In this document: piece after piece, positions 7,503 through 9,548 of the stretch
Layout: the number at the start of each line of letters is the position of its first letter
How positions within the stretch are numbered: the first letter of the stretch is position 1
Assembly: GCF_023703775.1 (NCBI RefSeq)
Contig: NZ_CP098514.1
Location: forward strand, 2,453,998-2,517,997
DNA length: 64,000 nt
Direction: 5' to 3'
Source: Haloplanus sp. GDY1
Lineage (GTDB): Archaea; Halobacteriota; Halobacteria; Halobacteriales; Haloferacaceae
The notes under the pieces: model-generated
Told to the model about the DNA's origin: nothing
Database searches by the model: none
The model's input: only the letters and a program-made list of their open reading frames with translations
Program-made: the position numbers and the translations under genes

Positions 7503-7937
7503 ATGCTCAGGCGCTTGCTGCGGGCGATACTGGTCGGTCCCGAGGCGCCGCAGATCCGTCGCTTCTTCGCCGTCGGTGCCGTCGCGGCCGCCTTCCAGAC
7601 GGCGCTGCTCGGCACGCTCGTCGAGTGGGGGAACGTCCAGTATCTGCTCGCGGCCGTCTGCTCCATCGAGGTCACCATCGTCCTCCAGTACGGCGTCAAC
7701 AACCGCTGGACGTTCTACGACTCCAGACACGACGGCTGGCGGGAGTACGGCCGCGGCCTCCTGCGGACGAACCTCGTCCGCGGCTCCGCCATCCCGATCC
7801 AGGTGGGCGTCCTGTACGCGCTGGTCTCGGCCGCGACCATCCCCTACCTCGTCGCCAACGGCGTCGGCATCGTCGTCAGCGGCGTCTACCGCTACGTCCT
7901 CGACTCGCGGTGGACCTGGGGCTATAGTAGCGATTGA
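7503..7937 (+). CDS. GtrA family membrane protein
   Basis: A 144-residue protein with four hydrophobic helices and the GtrA signatures RRFFAVGAVAAAF, QYGVNNRWTFYD and a final RYVLDSRWTW. GtrA-like proteins are thought to flip or carry lipid-linked sugars for cell-surface glycosylation. It starts 8 bp after the sulfatase stop, so the two form an operon. The last codons (YSSD and the TGA) lie inside the left arm of the inverted-repeat element at 7922-8007, so the present C-terminus comes from the element. Confidence 0.85.
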   Translation: MLRRLLRAILVGPEAPQIRRFFAVGAVAAAFQTALLGTLVEWGNVQYLLAAVCSIEVTIVLQYGVNNRWTFYDSRHDGWREYGRGLLRTNLVRGSAIPIQVGVLYALVSAATIPYLVANGVGIVVSGVYRYVLDSRWTWGYSSD

Positions 7938-8007
7938 AACTGTTTGCACAGCGGATCGCAGTACGGTGTACGGTCAACTGTGCAATGACTTTCAATCGCT
8001 ACTATAG
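7922..8007. mobile_element. MITE-like 86-bp element with 30-bp terminal inverted repeats
   Basis: The ends read CTATAGTAGCGATTGAAA inward from both sides (18 bp perfect). The match continues as an imperfect repeat through TTGCACAG, giving 27 identities in 30 bp. The centre is about 26 bp and the element encodes nothing. It sits exactly at the junction of two convergent genes and supplies the last codons and stop codon of both. I see no obvious target-site duplication. It is most likely a miniature derivative of a haloarchaeal insertion sequence; it would also form a strong bidirectional hairpin and might act as a terminator. Confidence 0.75.
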
Positions 8008-9548
8008 AAGTCGAGGCGTCGCTGGAGGAGGCTCGCCCCGCCGAACAGGAGCATGCCGAGCGAGAACAGACAGGCGACGGCCGCGTAGGTGAGCGCCGGC
8101 TGGAGGTTCCGCATCCCCTGATTGACGAGGACGCCGAGGCCGCCGTTGGCGACGAACCACTCGGCGATGACGACCCCGGAGAGCCCGCTGATCAGCGAGA
8201 GTTTCACGCCGGCGATCACGGTCGGCAGTCCGAACCGAAGTCGGACGACCAGCCGCGTCCGCCGGGGGGCGGCCACCGAATCGAGCAGCGAGCGGTGGCG
8301 TTCGGGGAGGGTCGTGAGCCCGCTCGCCGTCGCGACGGCGACGGGGAAGAACGTGGCGAGTGCGACGAGGACGATCCCGGCGGTAACGGAGATACCCAGC
8401 CACACCAGCAACAGCGGCGCGGCGACGATGCTCGGCGTCACGCGCGCGCCGACGAGGAACGGGCCGATCACCGGCCGGCTCCGGGGCGCGAACGCGAGGG
8501 CGGCACCGAGGGACGCGCCGACGGCGCCCCCGATCCCCCACCCGACCACGAGTTTCCGGAGCGACGACGCCGACGCCCGCAGGAACAGACCGGGGGTCTC
8601 CGCGAGCGACGCGGCGACGGCCGCCGGCGGCGGCAGGAACACGCCCGCGTTCGGGACCGTGACGGTGCCCACCAGCCAGACCCCGACGAGCGCGGCCAGC
8701 GCGACGCCGCCGAAGACGAGTCGCTCCGGCGTCGGTGCCGAGACGCCACCGGTGCCGACCCCGTCGATGCCGGCCGCGTCGTCCGCCCAGCGGATCGACC
8801 GCTCGGCGAGGACGACCAGGCCGAACAGCGCGAGGCCGAGGGCGACGATCAGGGTCACCTCCCCGAACAGCAGGGGGGTGTCGAGCGCCGCGGCCGCCTG
8901 CAACACGGCGTGGCCGAGCCCCCGGGAGGCGGCGAGGAACTCGGCGATCAACACCCCCTCGACGGCGAACGGGGTGGCGATCTTCACGCCCGCGAAGACG
9001 CTCGGAAGGGCGTTGGGCAGGCGGACGTACCTGATCCGCTTCCAGGTCGACGCCTCGACGGACCGCAGGAGGTCGAGTTGCCCCTGCGGCACCGAGCGCA
9101 ACCCGTCGAGGGTCGCCACCGTGACGGGGAAGAAGGTGAGGATGGCCGCAAGCAGCACGCGCGTCCGGAGGGTCGCCCCGAAGACGACGATCAGGAGCGG
9201 TGCGATGGCGATCAGCGGGACGATGCGGACGGACACCAGGAGCGGATAGACCGCGAGACGGAGGCGTCTGGACGCGGCCATCGCGCCCGCGGCGGCCATC
9301 CCGGCGCCGACGCCGGCGACCCACCCCAGACCGATCTCGTAGCTCGTATAGAGGACGTGACCGGCAACCTGACCCGGTCGCTCCCGCAGGGCGGCGACCA
9401 CCTCGGTCGGCGCGGGAAGCAGGATCGAGGGAATCCCCCAGACGACCGTCGCGGCCTGCCACAGGCCGACCGCGACGGCGAGCGAGAACGCGGCGACGGC
9501 CGGGCGCGCGAGTCCGTCGACGGCCCGCCGAACGCGAACCGCCCGCAT
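7992..9548 (-). CDS. ABC transporter permease, two fused BPD_transp_1 domains (NitT/TauT/THI5-type importer)
   Basis: 518 residues formed by two homologous permease halves (about 1-255 and 270-518). Each half has the EAA-type loop typical of binding-protein-dependent permeases (e.g. LRSVPQGQLDLLRSVEAS in the first, LTTLPERHRSLLDSVAAP in the second). This family imports nitrate, taurine, alkanesulfonates or thiamine-pyrimidine precursors. It starts directly after the stop of the binding-protein gene, so the two are coupled. No ATPase gene follows: the reading frame ends inside the inverted-repeat element with the residues YSSD. Confidence 0.85.
   Translation of the reverse strand: MRAVRVRRAVDGLARPAVAAFSLAVAVGLWQAATVVWGIPSILLPAPTEVVAALRERPGQVAGHVLYTSYEIGLGWVAGVGAGMAAAGAMAASRRLRLAVYPLLVSVRIVPLIAIAPLLIVVFGATLRTRVLLAAILTFFPVTVATLDGLRSVPQGQLDLLRSVEASTWKRIRYVRLPNALPSVFAGVKIATPFAVEGVLIAEFLAASRGLGHAVLQAAAALDTPLLFGEVTLIVALGLALFGLVVLAERSIRWADDAAGIDGVGTGGVSAPTPERLVFGGVALAALVGVWLVGTVTVPNAGVFLPPPAAVAASLAETPGLFLRASASSLRKLVVGWGIGGAVGASLGAALAFAPRSRPVIGPFLVGARVTPSIVAAPLLLVWLGISVTAGIVLVALATFFPVAVATASGLTTLPERHRSLLDSVAAPRRTRLVVRLRFGLPTVIAGVKLSLISGLSGVVIAEWFVANGGLGVLVNQGMRNLQPALTYAAVACLFSLGMLLFGGASLLQRRLDFYSSD

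Follow-up and report, generated by a model that had tools for sequence, protein, structure and literature searches.

A probable IS630-type MITE in Haloplanus whose two arms resupply the stop codons of convergent genes at CTAG targets

The RUP element of Streptococcus pneumoniae, a MITE derived from IS630-Spn1 (PMC2229807), is a non-autonomous sequence of about 100 bp with TA termini, IS630-like ends and stop codons in its reading frames, and in all these respects it resembles an element located at 7922..8007 of the 64,000-nucleotide stretch of Haloplanus sp. GDY1 DNA analyzed here (the window). RUP, however, was described as intergenic or as inserted inside IS genes, and a systematic replacement of two overlapping stops was not described for it (PMC2229807). 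The autonomous IS630 elements (Tenzen and Ohtsubo 1991; ISY100, PMC2170065) have in common with the window element the TA duplication, a CTAG preference and related terminal repeats; the preference for TA within CTAG is given by the title of Tenzen and Ohtsubo 1991, as cited in PMC2170065. Unlike these, the window element, at 86 bp too short for a transposase gene, lacks a transposase and carries an internal palindrome, and in its own genome we found no intact related IS. IS870, according to the title of Fournier et al. 1993 as cited in PMC6471742, also needs a CTAG target and involves stop codons, but its logic is the reverse: IS870 obtains its own stop from the target, and in the present case it is the element that supplies stops to the target genes.

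Inverted-repeat elements of comparable size, about 80-110 bp, are known from the haloarchaeon Haloquadratum walsbyi, where they were described as MITEs or small mobile repeats (SMRs; PMC3119063). The SMRs, however, do not duplicate their target, lack a related transposon and are directed at IS605-type elements, while the window element has a TA duplication and a related IS630. The Correia/NEMIS and Rickettsia palindromic elements (PMC2229807) are likewise palindromes that contribute coding sequence to host genes, but they add internal peptides or fuse ORFs, and restoration of both stops of a convergent pair was not described for them. Neither IS630-type MITEs nor TA duplication nor a preference for CTAG is new (PMC2229807, PMC2170065); in the open-access literature searched we found no report of an element restoring both stops of a convergent pair, or of stop-codon restoration by a MITE.

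The arms of the window copy, CTATAGTAGCGATTGAAACTGTTTGCACAG and CTATAGTAGCGATTGAAAGTCATTGCACAG, agree at 27 of 30 positions and are identical over the outer 18 bp (7922..7939 on the + strand and 7990..8007 on the − strand), exactly as an earlier note on this DNA had described; in an inverted-repeat search they extend to 37 nt at 84%. The earlier note had also given 86 bp as the size of the element. This figure is right for the whole repeat, which has no strand assigned and includes the C and the G of the CTAG target on either side, but the mobile part is the TA-flanked 80 bp at 7925..8004 (TAGTAGCG...CGCTACTA, also without strand), as deduced from the TA duplication, with an empty CTAG set against an occupied CTA...TAG and a net gain of 82 bp. 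The C and first TA of the target lie at 7922..7924 and the second TA and G at 8005..8007 (both +), as indicated by the empty-site comparison, the boundary logo and excision.

Two convergent genes end inside the repeat, each at a TGA in element positions 14-16, as indicated by the ORFs and gene-end positions. The gtrA-like gene (7503..7937, + strand; Pfam PF04138, GtrA_DPMS_TM) ends in ...RWTWG-YSSD* at the TGA of the left arm (7935..7937, +), and the fused ABC permease gene (7992..9548, − strand; two matches to Pfam PF00528, BPD_transp_1) ends in ...RRLDF-YSSD* at the TGA of the right arm (7992..7994, −). The shared YSSD-TGA ending, noticed earlier, was thus borne out by the ORFs, and the proposal that both C-termini were changed agrees with the orthologues, which end in ...RWTWQ/G* and ...RRLDW*. 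The further suggestion that a missing ATPase gene was connected with the insertion has to be given up, because the same gtrA-permease gene order is present in five relatives without the element (G002, G003, G008, G009 and G011). We also noticed that over 7576-8007 the third frame is open through the whole element and stops only at the far TAG, so that a gene entering in this frame would be extended by a long tail; among the genes of the fetched loci no case of such readthrough was found.

The frame in which genes enter the element can be understood from its empty sites. At locus L068 of genome G007 the occupied junction reads ttC-TATAGT..ACTATA-Gtc, and the same junction in G000 (the genome of the window), G009 and G008 reads ttCTAGtc; the occupied form can also be aligned as ttCTA-TAGTAG...CTACTA-TAGtc, the net gain of 82 bp being 80 bp plus the duplicated TA. 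At many other element-free junctions orthologous to G000 and G007 sites the two genes overlap by four bases (-4; CTAG or CTAA), the left gene ending with TAG and the right gene with CTA as read on the + strand. When the window copy is excised with one TA kept, the junction becomes gggCTAGaag, and both genes would stop there, gtrA with RWTWG* (as in G004) and the permease with RRLDF*, where relatives have RRLDW*. No CTAG overlap was found at the window site in the relatives examined, in which the gaps are 1-76 bp, and it is by excision that we infer a CTAG ancestor for this site. Since the C of CTAG occupies the third position of the final codon in each gene, both reading frames continue into the element as TAT AGT AGC GAT TGA; in the TGA subfamily both arms read in this way in the CTAG double-stop frame, which gives the tail YSSD. 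The CTAG target thus accounts for the reading frame, for the symmetry and for the tail that both proteins have in common. Direct replacement of stop, spacer and stop by the element was also considered and was dropped, since the CTAG empty sites account for the frame.

The rarity of CTAG in haloarchaea is documented (PMC6471742), and 224 kb of the window's own genome contained 33 CTAGs in comparison to 147 expected: 8 (about a quarter) were double stops, 3 were the stop of one gene only, 12 lay between genes and 10 within them. Double stops make up 14% of the non-interior CTAGs over all fetched loci, and 8/23 (35%) in random parts of G000. An element that seeks CTAG and is unable to survive inside genes would thus often meet convergent stops.

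The repeat is not confined to the gtrA/permease junction, and it was on its presence elsewhere in the genome that the earlier note had made its MITE reading depend. BLAST located it at 10 places of its own genome and a covariance model built from 35 copies at 17, and 107 of the 122 copies fetched are exactly 86 bp long. Of 40 related genomes 13 contain the element, among them 9 of the 11 that belong to the same genus, and tens of copies per genome are common; the copies lie mostly at non-orthologous junctions. The MITE reading is supported by these dispersed copies, by the orthologous empty sites and by the IS630 elements of sister species with related ends. Plasmids of Haloferax, Haloarcula, Halostella, Halobellus, Natronorubrum and others contain matching stretches of near-constant length with 72-80% identity; those examined, in Haloferax mediterranei, Haloarcula hispanica, Halobellus and Natronorubrum, are intergenic. 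No match was obtained in phage records, and when the genome contig collection was scanned for the exact pattern of the ends, the only matches were two in bacteria (Spirosoma and a Flavobacteriales MAG), both probably unrelated palindromes.

The copies fall into a TGA subfamily, with CGATTGA in the arms and TGA at element positions 14-16, and a sister subfamily with CGTTTGGA or CCTTTGTA in the arms and no stop at these positions; the C-T-A boundary logo is conserved at both ends in both subfamilies. A TGA-type variant, TAGCAACTGAAA, with the tail YSSN, is present in at least 13 copies in G029, a genome of another family (L121-L133); four have one stop and none lies on a double stop, possibly owing to a different CTAG landscape. 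At L193 (G001), orthologous to L146/L194, a decayed copy retains only the right arm, tcaatcgctccgatag, in recognizable form, and its TGA is still the stop of the right gene, which suggests that the stop persists longer than the element itself. A second family of palindromes, about 80-96 bp long and with ends TCATACGG(A/T)TTATTGTAA, was seen between convergent genes at L218, L222, L230, L338, L339, L341 and L348; here a gene often ends on a TGA at the extreme edge of the element, and the family may be another IS630-type MITE with a stop-friendly target of its own.

Gene ends at the fetched loci were then compared between the subfamilies. Genes were called on these loci by a self-trained codon model that reproduced the window genes, and the frames were set by this home-made caller, with which the orthologues agree where checked. 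Inside TGA arms, 59 of 67 gene ends fall at element position 16, and the other stop frame (TAG) accounts for 5 gene ends as against 59 at TGA (binomial p = 9e-13). Both convergent genes are in the TGA frame at 21 of 52 TGA/TGA elements and at none of 59 non-TGA elements (p = 8e-9), and at least one gene is so at 35/52 and 2/59, respectively (p = 1e-13); six orthologous pairs among the copies share ancestry, so these counts are not fully independent. When the comparison is restricted to five genomes containing the TGA type, the numbers with both genes in frame are 21/40 and, for TGA-less copies, 0/22 (p = 1e-5). In the genome of the window, 12 of the 17 copies supply at least one stop at the TGA and 5 supply both. 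In five of the six diverged G000 copies detected only by the covariance model, this TGA again serves as the stop of a gene, and in some of the diverged copies it is still used though the neighboring stem bases have decayed. What the earlier note overlooked is that the family as a whole supplies stops in this way, as a consequence of the CTAG target of the element. Among the tails, 23/59 are YSSD and most others are close variants (DSSD, YRSD, YSSN), with YSSG, RSRD and DRGE as further variants. At L070 (G007), GATTGA is changed to GGTTGA in both arms and both proteins end in YSSG, a visible compensatory change.

A candidate source of transposase was found in the sister species G003 and G004, in the form of IS630 elements, 1061 bp long, in which one ORF has an HTH match and another a DDE_3 match (Pfam HTH_33, DDE_3). 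Their ends, CTATAGTAGGCATTAGAAGTAATTGC, are identical to the right arm of the MITE at 19-21 of 26 positions; for random 26-mers compared with the arm, 14 was the 99.9th percentile and 19 the most seen in 20,000. The end consensus of these elements is CTATAGTA(A/G)..C.TTAGAA...TTGC, and similar transposases are encoded in 53 of 293 genomes of the order. Read in the CTAG-stop frame, 32 of 34 IS630 arms have TAG at positions 14-16; of 17 IS630 copies, none has a gene ending at this TAG. The earlier note had proposed to look for an IS with the same ends and a target-site duplication, and related ends are indeed present on the IS630 of sister species, together with a TA duplication deduced from empty sites, but no intact element of this kind was found in the window's own genome. 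Its single DDE_3 match is weak and has an internal stop, and a search around it gave no matching ends; for this reason the window copy is, as far as the sequence indicates, probably no longer mobile. At L093 (G004:C1 840940-844025) an IS630 transposase gene (842099-842569) is located between two oppositely placed MITE copies, a possible composite unit. At L329 and L252 (G000 contig C2, 147066-150138) a TGA-less copy and the single IS630 transposase remnant of its genome are separated by about 3 kb.

The exact position of the repeat between two gene ends would also be expected of a local terminator hairpin, or of a chance palindrome containing stop codons, that is not transposable at all. We find this scarcely credible in view of the 17 copies in the same genome and tens in sister species, mostly at non-orthologous junctions, the exact empty sites and the IS630 with related ends. 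A function of the hairpin as a bidirectional terminator, which the earlier note had thought possible, or as a stabilizer of mRNA 3ʹ ends, selected at convergent genes and with its mobile origin secondary, we consider unlikely. As single-stranded RNA the window element has a strong predicted fold (-45.2 kcal/mol in comparison to -18.7 for shuffles; z = -8.7, 0/200 shuffles), and paired stem changes are in excess, with 52 cells changed on both sides and 23.5 in shuffles (0/500), the palindrome having been imposed by hand for this test as for the covariance model; RNAalifold, run on the 35-row alignment, returned no base pair. Palindromes could, however, be maintained equally by transposase binding or by exchange between the arms, and the paired changes may reflect either of these or an RNA function. 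The hairpin has no U tract, the terminator scan gave no terminator-like site (GC stem with T tract), and no Rfam match exceeded the gathering score. The TGA-less subfamily keeps the hairpin and yet avoids double stops, and sister species are without the element at most of the same junctions with nothing obvious lost.

Placement is the other argument for such a function: TGA/TGA elements sit on double stops in 40% of cases, more than the 14% among non-interior CTAGs over the fetched loci (p = 2e-6), but the G000 availability of 8/23 (35%) is near the observed placement. TGA copies thus occur at double stops at or above CTAG availability, and with estimates from 14% to 35% they may be truly enriched there or only be allowed, whereas TGA-less copies avoid double stops. 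Alternatively, the YSSD tail itself could be under selection, for example as a shared C-terminal signal for stability or localization that was spread by the element. The 23 YSSD tails out of 59, with close variants as most of the rest, are in agreement with this, but the tail is dictated by a terminal repeat that the transposase must recognize, the host proteins are functionally unrelated, and variants such as YSSG, RSRD and DRGE occur; we regard it as very improbable.

We therefore consider it highly probable that the window element is a non-autonomous IS630-type MITE that targets CTAG and whose two arms resupply the stops of convergent genes; the 13 TGA/TGA copies of G029, none of which lies on a double stop, count against this explanation. 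As suggested by the empty sites, the element would insert into the TA of CTAG and duplicate it, presumably mobilized in trans by an IS630 transposase. In this compact genome CTAG is infrequent, and 4-bp overlaps of convergent stops make up a large share of the non-disruptive CTAGs. Insertion at such a double stop would break both stops, with element positions 2-16 in frame with both genes, and each gene would gain four residues (YSSD) and a new TGA. Because both genes regain a stop, the insertion would be tolerated; the absence of TGA-less copies from double stops points to their removal by selection.

A bolder reading is that the stop at positions 14-16, TAG in the IS630 relatives and TGA in the MITE subfamily, is an adaptation of the element, making insertion into a double-stop CTAG harmless, opening a niche closed to its TGA-less relatives and rendering the copies hard to lose. 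We put this forward tentatively, with somewhat more doubt than belief. The stop place common to the IS relatives and the TGA lineage is suggestive of it, but a constraint of transposase binding on the ends could be the cause as well, and the stop codon may instead be a lucky pre-adaptation.

The element provides a model of how a transposable element can live harmlessly in a gene-dense genome, with a stop overlap as its target and in-frame replacements in both directions. It explains why dozens of haloarchaeal proteins, though unrelated, share one short C-terminal tail, and its TGA and TGA-less subfamilies, which have the same target, constitute a natural experiment on stop-codon selection. It also connects the scarcity of CTAG, recognized for a long time, with the way in which convergent genes end.
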